Assembly (NCBI GenBank): GCA_002712305.1
Contig: PATE01000051.1
Span: 1-25,656 of the forward strand
Source: Gemmatimonadota bacterium
Lineage (GTDB): Bacteria > Latescibacterota > UBA2968 > UBA8231
Reading direction: 5' to 3'
Length of the DNA stretch: 25,656 bases
Each line of letters begins with the position of its first letter. Positions within the stretch are counted from its first letter, which is position 1. Positions 4,057 through 10,911 of the stretch are shown one piece after another. The translations under genes and the position numbers were made by a program. The notes beneath the pieces were generated by a model, which had not been told where the DNA came from, did not search any database, and worked only from the letters and a program-made list of their open reading frames with translations.

Positions 4057-4671
4057 GTGGCTGATAACCTCCACCTCGCTCTCAACCAGGTTCATCCCGC
4101 CCTCTCCCAGCAAGACCTGGAGCAAGCCGCCGACCTGTTGAGAAGTTACGAGCGAGAGCTGGCTCGCTTTGCCACCCAAGTAAACCTTATCAGCCCTGCC
4201 GATCTGCCACGACTGCAGCAACACCACATTCTGCCTTCAGTCGCACTGGGAGGTCTGATTCTCGATCGACCCCGAGACCATATTCTCGATGTCGGCTCAG
4301 GGGGTGGCCTACCTGCGATCCCACTCTCCATTCTGTTTGCCCAAAGCCAGTTTACACTCGTGGAATCGCGTCGTCGTCGCGCAAACTTCCTTCGTCACTG
4401 TGTACGTCAGCTGGACCTGACAAATGTCCGGGTCCGCCATGCTCGCGTGGAAGACATCGACGATGGGCCCTTCGACATTGCCACATCACGCGCCGTCGGT
4501 GGTATCGACCACCTTCGACAGGTCGCCGGTGCCAAACTCCATGAACATGGCTGTCTGATTACGACAATCAGTCCCGACGAGAATGAACCCGCCCACGGCG
4601 AGCTGCATGAAATCGAGGGTCCAGGATCGCCAATCAGGGCCATCCTTCTGGAACGCTTTTCCTGTGGATAG
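4057..4671 (+). CDS. rsmG: 16S rRNA (guanine-N7) methyltransferase RsmG
   Basis: RsmG methylates N7 of a conserved guanine in the 530 loop of 16S rRNA using SAM. The 204-residue protein shows the family segments in order: LLRSYERELARFATQVNLIS near the N-terminus, the SAM-binding loop ILDVGSGGGLPAIPL at about residues 75-89, then VESRRRRANFLRHC, and the catalytic-side segment FDIATSRAVG. The GTG start has GATGAGGG just upstream with tight spacing. The gene sits between the parS pair and the DnaA-box cluster. Its coding strand is C-rich, unlike mnmE and yidC just upstream. The last codons overlap the first DnaA-box-like 9-mer. Confidence 0.93.
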   Translation: MADNLHLALNQVHPALSQQDLEQAADLLRSYERELARFATQVNLISPADLPRLQQHHILPSVALGGLILDRPRDHILDVGSGGGLPAIPLSILFAQSQFTLVESRRRRANFLRHCVRQLDLTNVRVRHARVEDIDDGPFDIATSRAVGGIDHLRQVAGAKLHEHGCLITTISPDENEPAHGELHEIEGPGSPIRAILLERFSCG

Positions 4672-4875
4672 CCATGTGGACAACATGTCCCGCACGCCTG
4701 GTTCTCCACAGAGTTTTCCACAGTGCGCGTGGATAACTCAGACTCTCACAATATTGCCTAACCTATTGGTTTACCGTAGGTTGCTGGCTATGGTCTCGGA
4801 CCATGACGGTGTCTTCCACACGCCCTAAACAAATCGTGGATAAGAAACCGTCTGTCCAGATTCCTTCGTGGACAA
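4663..4875. other. oriC: Candidate replication origin (oriC): DnaA-box cluster
   Basis: Eight 9-mers resembling the DnaA box TTATCCACA fall within 213 bp. Minus-oriented: 4663-4671 (TGTGGATAG), 4675-4683 (TGTGGACAA), 4728-4736 and 4835-4843 (both CGTGGATAA), 4867-4875 (CGTGGACAA). Plus-oriented: 4702-4710 (TTCTCCACA), 4714-4722 (TTTTCCACA, which fits the relaxed TTWTNCACA), 4812-4820 (TCTTCCACA). Six differ from the consensus by one base and two by two. The segment at about 4743-4775 is locally AT-richer and could serve for unwinding. The cluster fills the gap between rsmG and the next gene and lies 0.7-0.9 kb from two parS sites. No dnaA or dnaN is in the window, so identification is by motif and context. 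Confidence 0.78.
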
Positions 4876-4977
4876 GTTACCTCTTGCTGCACTTGTTGGC
4901 AGCCGCCTATATTCTTGTCCGCACATTTGTACAACCTGGTTTTTGGCCACCTCTCCTCTGCACCGATCGATGTCACC

Positions 4978-5604
4978 TTGATCGTCTCTCGCCTCAAGTC
5001 TTCCGCAACTAGCGTCTTGCGGCCACTCGTCCAGCTGTTCGTCCGCCTGGGGTTTCGTCCAGACTGGCTGACCCTGTTCGGATTGCTGATGAATGTCGTT
5101 GCCACCGGGGCCTTCGCAGTGGGAGAGCTGCGTTGGGGTGCGGCGATCATGCTCGCCGCGGGTCTGTGCGACATCCTTGATGGCCAATTGGCGCGAGAGG
5201 GCCGCAGTGAGACCAAATTCGGTGCACTGCTAGATTCCACAACGGATCGATACTCTGAGATCTTCCTGTTCTTTGGCATTGCCACCTACCTGGTTCGTCG
5301 CGGAGACTGGTTGATAAGTTCCATTCTCTTCTTTGCCTTGGCAGGATCCCTCATGGTGAGCTATGTCCGTGCCCGCGCAGAGGGTTTGGGTGAGGACTGC
5401 AAAGTAGGCTTCATGCAGCGACCAGAGCGTCTTGCTGGTCTTGCCATAGGAGGACTCTTGGGACACGAAGGCCTTGTCTTCGTCCTCGTCGTACTGGCGG
5501 TCACGACCAACTACACCGTGATCGAAAGGTTGGCCTACATCCGCAACAAGCTCAACAACCCTCCAGCCCCCTCCCCCACGCCAATCTCGTCTACAGGCAA
5601 ATAG
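4978..5604 (+). CDS. CDP-alcohol phosphatidyltransferase family membrane protein
   Basis: This integral membrane enzyme family transfers a phosphatidyl group from CDP-diacylglycerol to an alcohol in phospholipid synthesis. The signature DG-x2-AR-x8-G-x3-D-x3-D is intact in DGQLAREGRSETKFGALLDS followed by TTDRY. It is flanked by hydrophobic helices such as LTLFGLLMNVVATGAFAVGEL, IFLFFGIATYLV and LISSILFFALAGSLMVSY. The acceptor alcohol (inositol-phosphate, glycerol-phosphate or another) cannot be decided. The TTG at 4978 gives the usual short N-terminus before RPDWLTLFG. An in-frame TTG at 4915 would add 21 residues. Neither has a clear Shine-Dalgarno. It is the first gene after the origin-like region and is followed closely by tmk. 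Confidence 0.85.
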   Translation: MIVSRLKSSATSVLRPLVQLFVRLGFRPDWLTLFGLLMNVVATGAFAVGELRWGAAIMLAAGLCDILDGQLAREGRSETKFGALLDSTTDRYSEIFLFFGIATYLVRRGDWLISSILFFALAGSLMVSYVRARAEGLGEDCKVGFMQRPERLAGLAIGGLLGHEGLVFVLVVLAVTTNYTVIERLAYIRNKLNNPPAPSPTPISSTGK

Positions 5605-5676: not shown

Positions 5677-6321
5677 GTGAAGCAATCACCCCTCTTCATC
5701 GTCTTCGAAGGCATCGATGGGTCGGGAACGACCACCCAATCCAAGCGACTCTTCGAGAGGCTTCAAGAGGACGGTCACGACGTGGTGCTCACTCGAGAAC
5801 CTGGAGGTACACCGCTGGCTGAGCGGATACGCGACCTCGTTCTGGATCCGGATGCAGGAGATGTGGATCACCGCACGGAACTGTTGTTGTACGGTGCCAG
5901 CCGTCGTCAACATGTGGCCGAGCTCATCGCCCCCAGCCTTGCGTCGGGTAAGCCGGTCATCAGCGACCGATATGCGGCCTCAACCGTAGCCTACCAGGGG
6001 ATCGGGCGGGGTTTGGGTGTGGACCTGGCGAACGCTGTGAATGACATCGCCGTCGCAGACACCACGCCTGATCTCACCATCTGTCTTGATGTGCCCGTCG
6101 ATGTGTCCTTGCAGCGGCGCCATCGCCGCGGAGGCCGACAGGATCGACTGGAAAAGGCCGGTTCCTCTCTGCAGCAGGCCGTCCGTCAGGCCTTCCTGGA
6201 CATGTCCATCGCAAGCCAGGATTGGTTTTTGATCGATGCCGTGACCACGGCAGATGCCATCCACGACCAAATCTGGTCACATCTTCACGAACGTTTCGCT
6301 GCTTTTCCATTCCGGAAATAG
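5677..6321 (+). CDS. tmk: Thymidylate kinase
   Basis: Tmk phosphorylates dTMP to dTDP for DNA synthesis. Seen: a phosphate-binding loop FEGIDGSGTTTQ at the N-terminus, a TREPGGTPLAERIR substrate segment, SDRYAASTVAYQG with the DRY motif, DLTICLDVPVDVSLQRR, and an Arg-rich lid RRGGRQDRLEKAG. The loop has Thr where the Walker A Lys normally stands. The GTG at 5677 gives the standard start MKQSPLFIVFEG. A TTG at 5641 in frame would add 12 residues. Neither has an obvious ribosome binding site. It lies between the CDP-alcohol transferase and an S41 protease. Confidence 0.92.
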   Translation: MKQSPLFIVFEGIDGSGTTTQSKRLFERLQEDGHDVVLTREPGGTPLAERIRDLVLDPDAGDVDHRTELLLYGASRRQHVAELIAPSLASGKPVISDRYAASTVAYQGIGRGLGVDLANAVNDIAVADTTPDLTICLDVPVDVSLQRRHRRGGRQDRLEKAGSSLQQAVRQAFLDMSIASQDWFLIDAVTTADAIHDQIWSHLHERFAAFPFRK

Positions 6322-6334
6322 CTGGGTGAACTCA

Positions 6335-8212
6335 ATGCCATTGTCACGATTCATCGCCAGTTTCGGTTGCGCTGTTATCACGCTGATTGCCCCTTTACCC
6401 GTGCAGGCGAGCAACGCTGACAAGGATCTATACGGAGATATCAACGACAGCTGGGAGCGCTTCGGCGCGGTCTATGGCCGGGTAGTGGAACATTACTACC
6501 AGGATGTCGACCACGAACAGATCATGCGATCAGCTATCGATGGTCTGCTTCGCGATCTGGACCCCTACAGTCAGTTTTTCGGCGCAGAGGGTCTGCGCCA
6601 GCTGCTACAGGATACGTCGGGTAAATTCGCGGGTCTGGGAATCACGGTGGGCCTCAAAGACCACTATCCGGTCATTATCGCGCCGATCGAAAACACCCCC
6701 GCTTCCAGGGCAGGTCTTTTGCCTGGCGACCTGATTGTCGGAATCGAAGGCCGAGATACTTTCGATCTGGGTCTTGAACAGATCGTCAATCGACTTCGAG
6801 GAGAGCCGGAGTCCACTGTCCATATCACGATTTCAAGACGCGGCGTGGAGAACGATTGGGATGTGGCGATCACCAGAGAGCTGATCACCATCCGCAGTGT
6901 GGCCGCCAGTGGACAAGTATCGCCGGGGGTTGGATATGTCAGCATGCGGCAGACCCGGTTCTCTGAGGAAACATCTGAGGAGGTCGCACAGGCTATTCGC
7001 CAGCTGCGTGAGGACGGTATCCACAGCCTCATCCTCGATCTGCGAGGGAATCCCGGAGGGCTGCTGAGCCAGGCCACGGAAGTGGCGGATCTGTTCCTGG
7101 AGAAGGGCGCCCCCATCGTTTCGGTACGAGAACGCGACCACGATCGGGCCGAGCTAAAGATCTCCCAGCGCTCTCCGTTGTTCGGCGACCTACCTTTGAT
7201 CGTGCTTATCGACGGTGGGAGCGCTTCGGCTGCAGAGATTGTGGCTGGTGCCCTGCAGGATAACGACCGCGCTCTACTGGTGGGAACACGCTCCTTTGGC
7301 AAGGGGTCGGTACAGACCATCTTCGACTTGCGCGATCTGGGCCAGGCCGCCCTCAAACTCACCACCGCCCTCTACTACACGCCTAGCGGTCGTAGCATCC
7401 ACCGTCAGTCGTTGACGGTGCCCCCCGGTGCGCTGCTGCAGGTGCCGGCCGGTGACTACGACTTGCCAGCCGGGCTTCTGCTGGGACTCATCCTGCGGTC
7501 GCCGGATTCTGAAACGGCCGTCGAACGATTGCAGGCCCGTTTCGAATTGGAAGAGGATGAGGCACGCCTGATTCTCTCGACGCCCCTCGATGCCTTCATC
7601 GGCGAAGCGGCGGATCGACAACTGACGGCCGAATCCTCCACCGACACCGTCATCTATCGAACCCGGCGTGGACGAACCGTATTCGGTCATGGCGGAATCG
7701 ATCCGGATGTGACGGTCACCGATTCCACACCGCCCATGATCGTCCAGCAGATGCATCGACAGCGTGTCTTCTTCGACTTTGTCGTCGACTATGTCGGTCG
7801 CGATGCTGATCGCGAAACTGCCACCGCAGCCGTGGACGCTCAAATGCTGGAGGCTTTCCGACGCTTCCTCCCCCAATCGCAACTGGCTCATGCTCGTCAA
7901 CCAGACGGTTACGATGAGTTGGAGCAGCTACGTCGTCTCGCTCAGGACGCAGGCTGGAATGGCAGCGTCGTGCAGGCCCTCGACAGTCTGCAGGTCGCCA
8001 TGGATCGCCGAAGAGAGTATCTCAACTTTCCCGAAGCGGCCCTACCCTTCATTCGTGAGGCACTTCTGCGAGAACTGGACCTGCGACTGCATGGTCGCGA
8101 AGCAAGCCTCCTGTCGGGTCTCCAATACGACCATCAAGTGCAGGAAGCGCTGCAATTGTTCGAAAATCCCGCACGGTATCAGGAATTGTTGCTCGCTGGC
8201 GTCGACGACTGA
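6335..8212 (+). CDS. S41 family C-terminal processing peptidase (CtpA-like), secreted
   Basis: CtpA/Prc proteases cleave C-terminal segments of envelope proteins using a Ser-Lys dyad. From the ATG at 6335 the protein is 625 residues with an N-terminal signal peptide (SRFIASFGCAVITLIAPLPV, likely cleaved near QASNA). A PDZ domain at about 88-175 (GKFAGLGITVGL, ASRAGLLPGDLIVGIEG) precedes the S41 domain. The probable catalytic Ser298 is in GGSASAAEI, and Lys323, 25 residues later, is in FGKGSVQ. A roughly 260-residue C-terminal region contains TRRGRTVFGHGGIDPDVTV, a segment typical of CtpA proteins in Bacteroidota/Chlorobi-like lineages, and then an uncharacterised helical part. An open frame extends 27 codons upstream into tmk, but the signal peptide fixes the start. 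Confidence 0.92.
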   Translation: MPLSRFIASFGCAVITLIAPLPVQASNADKDLYGDINDSWERFGAVYGRVVEHYYQDVDHEQIMRSAIDGLLRDLDPYSQFFGAEGLRQLLQDTSGKFAGLGITVGLKDHYPVIIAPIENTPASRAGLLPGDLIVGIEGRDTFDLGLEQIVNRLRGEPESTVHITISRRGVENDWDVAITRELITIRSVAASGQVSPGVGYVSMRQTRFSEETSEEVAQAIRQLREDGIHSLILDLRGNPGGLLSQATEVADLFLEKGAPIVSVRERDHDRAELKISQRSPLFGDLPLIVLIDGGSASAAEIVAGALQDNDRALLVGTRSFGKGSVQTIFDLRDLGQAALKLTTALYYTPSGRSIHRQSLTVPPGALLQVPAGDYDLPAGLLLGLILRSPDSETAVERLQARFELEEDEARLILSTPLDAFIGEAADRQLTAESSTDTVIYRTRRGRTVFGHGGIDPDVTVTDSTPPMIVQQMHRQRVFFDFVVDYVGRDADRETATAAVDAQMLEAFRRFLPQSQLAHARQPDGYDELEQLRRLAQDAGWNGSVVQALDSLQVAMDRRREYLNFPEAALPFIREALLRELDLRLHGREASLLSGLQYDHQVQEALQLFENPARYQELLLAGVDD

Positions 8213-8220
8213 TGGTTGCT

Positions 8221-8638
8221 GCAGCGGCATGCGCTGCGTACCATTAAGAAACCTGACTATTTGATTTCATACCGCCAGCATCGGGGCAAGACCCTGACGG
8301 GCGGCGGGTTCCGACACAGCGTCGGCCCATTTACAACATCGCGTCCGGTACGGACGCCAGGATCTTCCGGCTCGATACACCGTCATAGACTGCGTCACCT
8401 GTGATGTGAACGCAGACGGTCTCGAACCTACCTCGCAGGTCGAGGATGCCGCACGAAGTGGCCCAGAGTGGATTCGTCCGGCACAAGGCCGGCAACCACA
8501 GATCGTCGCCAGTTTCCATCGCCGCACCACGACCCTCATGTCGCAGGGTTGCGCGGCGGGCATACGTGTTGCGACACGTGCGCGACGATACCCTCTCCTG
8601 CCCTCCGTACCGGACCTACGTCACCGGCAACCGGTGAC
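8221..8638 (+). promoter_or_regulatory. Hairpin-rich leader upstream of the RNase E/G gene
   Basis: The 442-base gap 8213-8654 has no convincing gene but is full of perfect short inverted repeats: GCAGCG/CGCTGC (8221-8237), CCGCC/GGCGG enclosing GGG/CCC (8272-8304), CCGAC/GTCGG (8311-8325), GCGTCC/GGACGC (8341-8357), a long interrupted stem (8369-8428), CCTCG/CGAGG (8431-8445), CCGGC/GCCGG (8478-8492), GCCGC/GCGGC enclosing ACCCT/AGGGT (8521-8557), ACGTGT/ACACGT (8564-8579) and GTCACCGG/CCGGTGAC (8620-8638). Five have exactly 5-base loops. The last hairpin ends just before the ribosome binding site of the RNase gene. E. coli rne is autoregulated through a structured 5' leader, so a similar role is plausible. 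Strand and RNA boundaries are inferred. Confidence 0.55.
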
Positions 8639-8654
8639 ATCAAGGACAAGGTCC

Positions 8655-10211
8655 ATGCGTACGGAAATATTCATCAATCAAGGGATTCACGAATCCCGCA
8701 TCGCCATCGTCGAAGACGGAGATCTGGCCGAAATCTGGGTCGAACGACCTGAGGCCGAGCGGATTGTCGGCGATATCTACAAAGGCACGGTCACAGCCGT
8801 CCTGCCTAGCCTTCAGGCGGCCTTCGTCGAAATCGGCCTTGAACGCACTGCGTTTCTACAGGTGCGTGACATGGTCGAAGCCGAATCGGATGACGAGAGC
8901 AATGGCTCATCACGTCACCGCCGATCGCGCTCGTTTCCCAACATCCAGGATCTGGTGAAGAAGGGCCAGCAGCTGCTGGTGCAGATCTCCAAAGAGCCCA
9001 TCGGAACCAAGGGGGCTCGGGTGACCACACAGCTCAGTCTCGCCGGTCGCTTCATCGTCGCCATGCCCAATGGTGACTGGGTCGGTGTGTCGCGCAAGAT
9101 CTCAAGCTGGAACGAACGGCGTCGCTTGCGCGATGTGGTGCGCAAACTGTGTCCGGATGGGTTCTCGGCCATCGTACGCACTGAAGGACGCGGCAAACCG
9201 GAGAAGGACCTGCGCAAAGACCTCAAGCAACTGACGCGCACGTTCCGGCGAATTCAGAAACGCGATAAACGTCTCAAGCCGCCGGCGGTCATCCATCGTG
9301 AGATCGGCATGACGTCGAGTGTCATCCGAGATCTGTTTACCGAAAATGTCGATCGCCTCGTCGTTGACTCTCGCGATCTCTATGACGAGATCGTCGAATA
9401 CCTCAAGCAGGTCTCACCGGAGCTGCGCAAGCGGGTCGAACTGCATCGCGACAAGAAACCCCTCTTTGATGTCAACAAGATCGAAGGGGAACTGGACAAG
9501 GTAAACGAACGCGAAGTGTGGATGCGTCGCGGTGGTTCGCTCGTGATCGATCACGCGGAGGCCGGCACCTTCATCGACGTAAACTCCGCCCGCAACACGG
9601 GCAAACGCGATCAAGAAGAGAGCATTCTCCACACCAATCTGGAAGCTGCTCGTGAGGTGGCCAGACAGCTTCGCCTTCGTGACATCGGCGGCATCATCGT
9701 CATCGATTTCATCGACATGCACGACGAGCGGAATCGACGCAAACTCGTCGATGCCATGATCGAGGAGGTCAAACGCGATCGGGCCAAGGTCTCCATCAGT
9801 CCCCAGATTTCCGAATTCGGCCTCATTGAAATGACACGCCAACGTGTCCGTCCGAACCTGCTCCACACCCACTCCGAACCTTGCCCAACCTGCGAGGGAC
9901 GAGGTCGCATCATGGGGGCCGATACGACAATCACCAAGATCGAGCGCTGGCTCCGCCGAGCCTATGCCCACAACAGCGACCGCCGCTTTCACCTTCGGGT
10001 TCATCCGGAGGTGGCCGCAGCGGTTCGTGGCGAGAATGGTCGTCGACTCAAAGACATGCGGAAGGCGACCAAGACGCGGGTCGACATCGTCGAGGACGCA
10101 ACGATGACCCTGCAGGACTATCGATTTATCTCGACACGTCGAGAATTGGACGTCACCGCCGAACATTTGATCCGGGTGGGTGGCAACAACGGGGGCCGTC
10201 GATCTCGTTGA
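8655..10211 (+). CDS. rng: Ribonuclease E/G family endoribonuclease
   Basis: RNase E/G enzymes make single-strand endonucleolytic cuts in mRNA decay and rRNA maturation. The 518-residue protein has no long C-terminal scaffold, so it resembles RNase G in size. An N-terminal RNase H-like segment (MRTEIFINQG) leads into a split S1 domain (GDIYKGTVTAVLPSLQAAFV, about 39-58) with a charged insertion at about 76-95. The 5' sensor region follows at 100-180. The catalytic aspartates are probably Asp308 (TFIDVNS) and Asp351 (VIDFIDM). The Zn-link CPTC is Cys410/Cys413. The ATG at 8655 is preceded by AAGGACAAGG and gives the family start. An 83-codon open extension upstream is unlike the family. It is followed by rplU and rpmA. 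Confidence 0.95.
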   Translation: MRTEIFINQGIHESRIAIVEDGDLAEIWVERPEAERIVGDIYKGTVTAVLPSLQAAFVEIGLERTAFLQVRDMVEAESDDESNGSSRHRRSRSFPNIQDLVKKGQQLLVQISKEPIGTKGARVTTQLSLAGRFIVAMPNGDWVGVSRKISSWNERRRLRDVVRKLCPDGFSAIVRTEGRGKPEKDLRKDLKQLTRTFRRIQKRDKRLKPPAVIHREIGMTSSVIRDLFTENVDRLVVDSRDLYDEIVEYLKQVSPELRKRVELHRDKKPLFDVNKIEGELDKVNEREVWMRRGGSLVIDHAEAGTFIDVNSARNTGKRDQEESILHTNLEAAREVARQLRLRDIGGIIVIDFIDMHDERNRRKLVDAMIEEVKRDRAKVSISPQISEFGLIEMTRQRVRPNLLHTHSEPCPTCEGRGRIMGADTTITKIERWLRRAYAHNSDRRFHLRVHPEVAAAVRGENGRRLKDMRKATKTRVDIVEDATMTLQDYRFISTRRELDVTAEHLIRVGGNNGGRRSR

Positions 10212-10301
10212 CAGATCCAGAGGGTCGGCTTAGCTTTGGTCCTTCTGTCCGCCGACGTGTGTGGGCAGATCTCCCCTGGTCTGACAAAAGAGAAAACCAG
10301 C

Positions 10302-10619
10302 ATGTACGCCGTCATCCGCATCGGTAGCCACCAGTTCCAGGTCGAAGAAGGTGCCACTGTGCGTGTGCCTCGCCTCGACGCTGACGAAGGCGCCAAACAG
10401 ACCCTCACCGATGTCTTGCTCGTACGTGGCGACGCAGCCACTCACGTCGGTACGCCGACGGTCGAGGGTGCATCGGTGGAGGCCACCGTCGTCGGCCACG
10501 GAAAAGCCGACAAGATCATCGTATTCAAGATGAAGCGGCGGAAGAACTATCGCCGCCGCAATGGGCACCGTCAGCAATACACAGACTTGAAGATCGACGG
10601 GATCGTCGCTCCCAACTAG
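10302..10619 (+). CDS. rplU: 50S ribosomal protein L21
   Basis: L21 binds 23S rRNA in the large subunit. The ATG at 10302 gives 105 residues starting [17 protein letters not shown], the conserved L21 opening, and containing [20 protein letters not shown] and [10 protein letters not shown], the conserved basic C-terminal core. The upstream purine-rich AAAAGAGAAAA serves as ribosome binding site. In-frame sequence upstream to 10236 is not L21-like. It forms the standard rplU-rpmA pair, 37 bases apart. Confidence 0.96.
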
Positions 10620-10656
10620 AGCGTCATTCCCTCCTCTACGGACGACAGGACAATCC

Positions 10657-10911
10657 ATGGCACACAAGAAAGGCGTCGGTAGTTCGCGCAATGGTCGCGA
10701 CAGCCAGTCCAAACGCCTCGGCGTCAAGCGCTATGGCGGACAACACGTGACGGCGGGAACGATCATCGTCCGTCAGCGTGGCACCCGCATCCACCCCGGC
10801 ATCAACGTAAAAAAGGGTGGAGATGACACGCTCTACGCAACGACCGATGGCCGGGTGGCATTTGAGGTCGTGGGTCGCAACCGCAAGCGAGTGAACATCG
10901 TCGCTACCTGA
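10657..10911 (+). CDS. rpmA: 50S ribosomal protein L27
   Basis: L27 reaches the peptidyl-transferase centre of the large subunit. The 84-residue protein starts directly [20 protein letters not shown], without the cleavable N-terminal extension seen in Firmicutes, and continues [20 protein letters not shown] and [20 protein letters not shown], all highly conserved. AGGAC at suitable spacing precedes the ATG. It is the last gene of the rightward transcription unit, followed by a strong terminator. Confidence 0.96.

Follow-up and report, generated by a model that had tools for sequence, protein, structure and literature searches.

In Escherichia coli, a 361-nt leader of rne (the rne5 element, RF00040) mediates feedback (PMC10989929), and the region around the rne translation start is reported to be unstructured (PMC8200214). 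The 5′ UTR of rne in Synechocystis contains a U-rich RNase E site; feedback by self-cleavage has been proposed, cleavage and premature termination have been measured, and RN/WUU is the core motif quoted (PMC10989929). A candidate cis element, the rne-II motif (RF01756), lies upstream of rne in Pseudomonadales (PMC2864571), and RNase III cuts the coding region of rng in E. coli (PMC3985665).

The locus described here belongs to an uncultured Latescibacterota MAG, whose nearest publicly recorded relatives are themselves MAGs labelled Latescibacterota or Gemmatimonadota; the whole stretch of DNA analysed (the window) comprises 25,656 nucleotides. A gap of 442 bases (8213–8654) lies between the gene for an S41 processing peptidase (6254–8212, 5′ of the gap) and rng, which encodes a Rne/Rng family ribonuclease (8655–10211, + strand; TIGR00757, E 3e-148). 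Downstream on the same strand are rplU (10302–10619) and rpmA (10657–10911), a pair covered by TIGR00061 and TIGR00062 (10302–10911), and the three genes probably form one operon. The order rng-rplU-rpmA is maintained in the relatives' loci where it could be checked, and the S41-rng neighbourhood is conserved across the family, with gaps of differing length between the two genes. The Rne/Rng gene is usually single in the family genomes that gave a match.

Our analysis indicates that the gap holds a long 5′ UTR, conserved and structured, immediately before the Rne/Rng gene, on a predicted transcript. The leader resembles rne5 in combining a long structured leader (404 nt here), an RNase E/G-family gene, and a promoter of its own. 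It differs in that a long-range helix closes a branched domain, in that the initiation region is predicted to be paired whereas that of E. coli is reported to be unstructured (PMC8200214), and in that the gene is rng-like and lies in an rng-rplU-rpmA operon. With rne-II it shares the position of a candidate cis element upstream of an RNase gene, although in a different phylum. Like the Synechocystis 5′ UTR, it is a long leader with an A/U-rich element; cleavage and termination were measured there, whereas the leader here is known from its anatomy alone.

Searches for known RNA families and hidden genes

Unlike rne5, the leader matches no Rfam model even at a permissive threshold: covariance models run at gathering and permissive thresholds on the window and its relatives identified no family, and one match, at E 1.1, is far below the cut-off. 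The rne5 model gives no match in the gap at the gathering threshold or at E values up to 5, and the rne-II covariance model does not match either; because of this the leader is not a member of rne5 or rne-II, although it may work like one of them. Models of ribosomal-protein leaders (L21 and others in Rfam) likewise do not match.

RNase P RNA, tmRNA, and 6S RNA, the large RNAs named in the original prediction, are all without a match in the gap. The first two (RF00010 and RF00023) are each found on another contig in the same-genus relative G001, with 315 and 175 bits, respectively; in the window's own assembly (91% complete) neither rises above the cut-off. The predicted fold is multi-branched, unlike the long single hairpin with a central bubble of 6S RNA (RF00013). 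No 6S RNA scores above the cut-off in any of the 25 family genomes; it is either absent or has diverged beyond the reach of the Rfam model.

It had also been considered that 8406–8654 might be translated as an N-terminal extension of the RNase. There is no protein extension or hidden gene at this open reading frame: it has no Pfam match, the indels in G001 are not multiples of three and break the frame, and similarity to RNases begins at the ATG at 8655.

DNA searches of the family genomes found no copies of the leader away from rng, searching with a covariance model built on the 5′ domain gave, besides both copies already known, a single match close to chance, and no terminator-like site was found before rng. 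Our search of open-access papers turned up none that describes a leader of this kind in Latescibacterota, which is not proof of absence. The segment 8251–8654 is a so far unlisted RNA element, real and selected.

Predicted promoter, fold, and conservation within the genus

A promoter-like element, TTGC-N19-TANNNT (here TTGCTG-N17-TACCAT; 8216–8244, + strand), is conserved in nine of nine long-gap loci, with identical spacing and 3–28 bases 3′ of the S41 stop codon, and is missing from all four of the short-gap loci checked. Across 306 kb of loci, the + strand contains 33 matches to the pattern, a count that includes the long-gap copies and their duplicates. A generic sigma-70 scan found no site, the element scoring below its threshold, so the promoter assignment rests on conservation. 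We read the element as the leader's promoter, with a predicted transcription start near 8251.

Hairpins were counted as non-overlapping perfect stems of at least 5 bp with loops of 3–8 bases and compared with dinucleotide shuffles. The gap contains eight strict Watson-Crick hairpins against a shuffle mean of 2.5 (p ~0.003; about threefold enrichment) and 11 against 7.9 when G-U pairs are allowed (p 0.08). Four strict hairpins, or six with G-U, have a loop of exactly 5 bases (shuffle means 0.35 and 1.0); these counts are equalled by none of 300 shuffles, and the strict enrichment is about tenfold. The folding energy of the gap has a z of −4.5 against dinucleotide shuffles and that of the predicted transcript (8251–8654) a z of −4.9, the strongest excess among the window's 127 tested segments of that length (404 nt); at the 200-nt scale, the leader is among the best-folding segments but is not unique. 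The excess of hairpins in the gap and the structure beyond that of the surroundings, both claimed in the original prediction, are thus borne out.

That prediction described a chain of about ten hairpins. The excess holds, but a simple chain is an incomplete picture: in our models, the likely fold of the 404-nt leader is one closed branched domain, with two hairpins on the 5′ side, a long-range helix of 12 bp, a middle part that varies, a final hairpin, and pairs covering the ribosome binding site. The first supposed member of the chain (8220–8238) is located between the two boxes of the promoter-like element and so is probably outside the transcript.

All features of the predicted fold are on the + strand. 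The 5′ strand of the closing helix P1 (8251–8265) pairs with the region of the ribosome binding site (8251–8254 with 8649–8652, and 8260–8265 with 8639–8644), and is predicted independently in both the window and G001. It is followed by a compound hairpin, H1 (8272–8304), with 11 of 11 pairs common to G001 within slip, and by H2 (8306–8328), in which the base of the stem is common and the distal stem has been re-formed from other sequence. The A/U-rich segment ATTTACAACATCGC (8329–8342) is near-identical in G001 and unpaired in the predicted fold.

The long-range helix PL joins 8343–8354 to 8604–8615, and all 12 of its pairs are kept in G001, two of them by C to U changes that give G-U pairs on the + strand. 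A local hairpin (8341–8357), also maintained in G001, competes with it. Equilibrium folding of nascent lengths gives this hairpin a probability of ~1 for lengths up to 8610 and 0 from 8620 on; the 5′ strand of PL is thus predicted to be held in the hairpin until the 3′ strand is made and then to exchange into the 12-bp helix.

Within PL lie the hairpin H4 (8356–8371) and the compound hairpin H5 (8372–8425), which together span 8356–8425; both are common to G001, with two-sided changes at 8360–8368 in H4 and at 8379–8420 and 8395–8410 in H5. A second long-range helix, PL2 (8435–8445, pairing with 8592–8601), has nine of nine pairs in common within slip. The middle (8448–8589) folds into hairpins of the window's own, none of whose pairs is common to this nearest relative. 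The terminal hairpin H9 (8620–8638) is the last hairpin of the original prediction and is real, with an 8-bp stem and a 3-base loop; it is common to G001, with a C-G to U-A change at 8624–8634. The final segment (8642–8654), identical in G001, contains the Shine-Dalgarno sequence AAGGA (8642–8646) and a small hairpin, GGAC-AAG-GUCC, that extends to the start codon; the GGA is predicted to be mostly paired, via either P1 or this small hairpin. The sequence GA/UUU at 8263–8267 fits RNWUU and overlaps the P1 strand that pairs with the Shine-Dalgarno sequence; since three RNWUU-type matches occur in the 404 nt, it is weak evidence when taken alone.

The fold for this genus (g1) is based on two sequences, the window and G001, whose leaders are 59% identical. 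Folded separately, both give the same plan of P1, H1, H2, ATTTACAACATCGC, PL, H4, H5, PL2, an unshared middle, and H9. Under a null that left all conserved columns in place and shuffled the substituted letters alone (300 simulations), 17 ± 11 common pairs are expected; the two leaders share 75, a number reached by 0 of 300, and the true G001 leader folds 3.9 SD better in energy than this null. The fit is better on the + strand than on the − strand, where the 42 shared pairs are equalled by 8 of 300 simulations. The matched helices contain 58 unchanged pairs, eight changed on one side, and six changed on both, counts biased towards the fold by a matching procedure designed to favour agreement; the comparison of 75 with 17 is free of that. 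None of eight control segments from the same genome pair (S41, rng, and rplU region) has an excess of shared structure. A column-by-column pairing test on the plain alignment over the whole length was not significant, as the middle defies sequence alignment, and the fold-against-fold test was used instead. As judged from these sequences, selection maintains the fold on the rng-sense (+) strand while the sequence changes fast.

Leaders and gaps in related genera

The gap between S41 and rng is long in the window (442 bases), G001 (457), genus g5 (742, 513, and 513), genus g2 (847), and three genomes of genus g7 (582, 591, and 532); long gaps with the same promoter-like element are thus found in four genera. 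Shorter gaps occur in one g5 genome (157 bases), an unplaced contig (276), the other g7 genomes (67–71), and g4 (13–32). Any control by the leader is dispensable, since many relatives do without one (gaps of 13–71 bases).

Genus g7 is divided between loci with an A/T-richer leader of 532–591 bases (L009, L010, and L011) and loci with a gap of 67–71 bases (L014 and L016–L022). The split indicates that the module of promoter and leader was recently gained or lost, and leader-bearing and leaderless relatives within one genus make the cost and gain of such control comparable. Sequence similarity between the g7 leaders (L009 and L011, from the three g7 genomes with a leader) and that of the window is undetectable. 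On the + strand, L009 and L011 have 62 pairs in common where 18 would be expected (0 of 300), the − strand being not significant, and they share a long-range rod of their own of ~30 bp; the shared-structure comparison of L010 with L011 was not significant. In g5, one leader (L004) folds well and two (L005 and L006) fold weakly. The Shine-Dalgarno region is predicted to be paired in the window, G001, and the g7 leaders, and not in L005. The 847-base gap in g2 (L008, genome G002) has an internal repeat, GAGAGTACTTGAAATGGCCGCCTCA, present in two copies 3′ of the same promoter element, and may hold an inserted element.

A strongly selected leader precedes the usually single RNase E/G gene in a remote, uncultured phylum, which suggests that leader-mediated control of RNase E/G arose more than once.

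Proposed function and other readings

It is very likely that 8251–8654 is a functional structured cis leader, as supported by the conserved promoter-like element, the fold conserved on the + strand, and the constant linkage to rng. To this extent the original prediction stands: a structured leader with a selected fold, probably acting in cis, is well supported. The accompanying proposal that the RNase reads its own activity through the leader draws by analogy on the rne genes of E. coli and Synechocystis. The feedback through the E. coli rne leader makes the RNase the likeliest regulator, L21/L27 or RNase III being possible, and by that analogy we put the chance that the RNase itself senses the leader a little below even. 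The usual presence of one Rne/Rng gene per genome and the conserved single-stranded A/U-rich segment are consistent with self-sensing. The combined reading, a cis leader of the rng-rplU-rpmA operon with its own promoter and with RNase feedback, is reasonably probable. In broader terms, the leader is very probably an RNA element controlling an RNase E/G-family enzyme, perhaps through the enzyme itself.

In the proposed mechanism, the leader would be transcribed from its own promoter just 3′ of the S41 gene. It would adopt a single closed domain, with the ribosome binding site covered by the outermost pairs. Translation of the RNase would depend on the state of the leader, giving cis regulation of rng and perhaps also of rplU and rpmA. 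Less certainly, RNase E/G would recognise the leader and cut its own mRNA when in excess, resulting in negative feedback; candidate cut sites are the single-stranded A/U-rich segment (8329–8342) and GA/UUU (8263–8267) opposite the Shine-Dalgarno sequence. A more ambitious and rather doubtful model is that Latescibacterota possess a new class of large closed-domain RNA switches for RNase E/G, in which a long-range helix that would form only once the 3′ half has been transcribed and the pairing of the Shine-Dalgarno sequence opposite an RNase site would make translation and self-cleavage mutually exclusive, and in which the leaders of different genera would follow a similar plan without detectable similarity.

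The original prediction offered as its alternative an independent large ncRNA. A structured ncRNA with its own promoter in the gap, rng being transcribed from elsewhere or by read-through, would account for the promoter-like element and for a complex 400-nt fold of stable-RNA size. This reading is weakened, and we regard it as unlikely: no terminator-like site was found before rng, the outer helices engage the ribosome binding site of rng at the Shine-Dalgarno sequence, and no copies were found away from rng. The element is absent from close relatives and is therefore not a housekeeping RNA, and RNase P RNA and tmRNA are located elsewhere in G001.

Ribosomal-protein operons are often preceded by structured leaders, and the conserved order of rng, rplU, and rpmA would also allow L21 or L27 to be the regulator, the element then being an autogenous ribosomal-protein leader. 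Its position before rng rather than rplU, the lack of a match to the Rfam ribosomal-protein leaders, and the relatives that have the same operon and lack the leader make this improbable. There is a similarly small chance that the cis element is under other control, by RNase III cutting the long-range helices or, via the exchange between hairpin 8341–8357 and PL, which are mutually exclusive, by temperature or a small molecule. The ~30-bp rod of the g7 leaders fits such control, as does the control of E. coli rng mRNA by RNase III, though there via cuts in the coding region (PMC3985665); against it, PL and PL2 of the window are short for an RNase III site, and a conserved core resembling a ligand pocket is not definable from two sequences. 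Functionless chance structure in G+C-rich DNA is very improbable: although a large part of the leader evolves rapidly in sequence and relatives manage without it, the folding exceeds that of composition-preserving shuffles, and the fold is conserved beyond the neutral null, as in 0 of 8 controls.

Two other parts of the window fold strongly. A 200-nt excess (z −4.2) is present at 10401–10600, inside rplU, although 10212–10620 is without an excess of conserved structure relative to G001. Second in folding excess within the window is 4445–5050 (404-nt z −4.95 and −3.56), around the place where rsmG ends and a CDP-alcohol transferase-like gene begins; it is possibly another leader or a terminator region.
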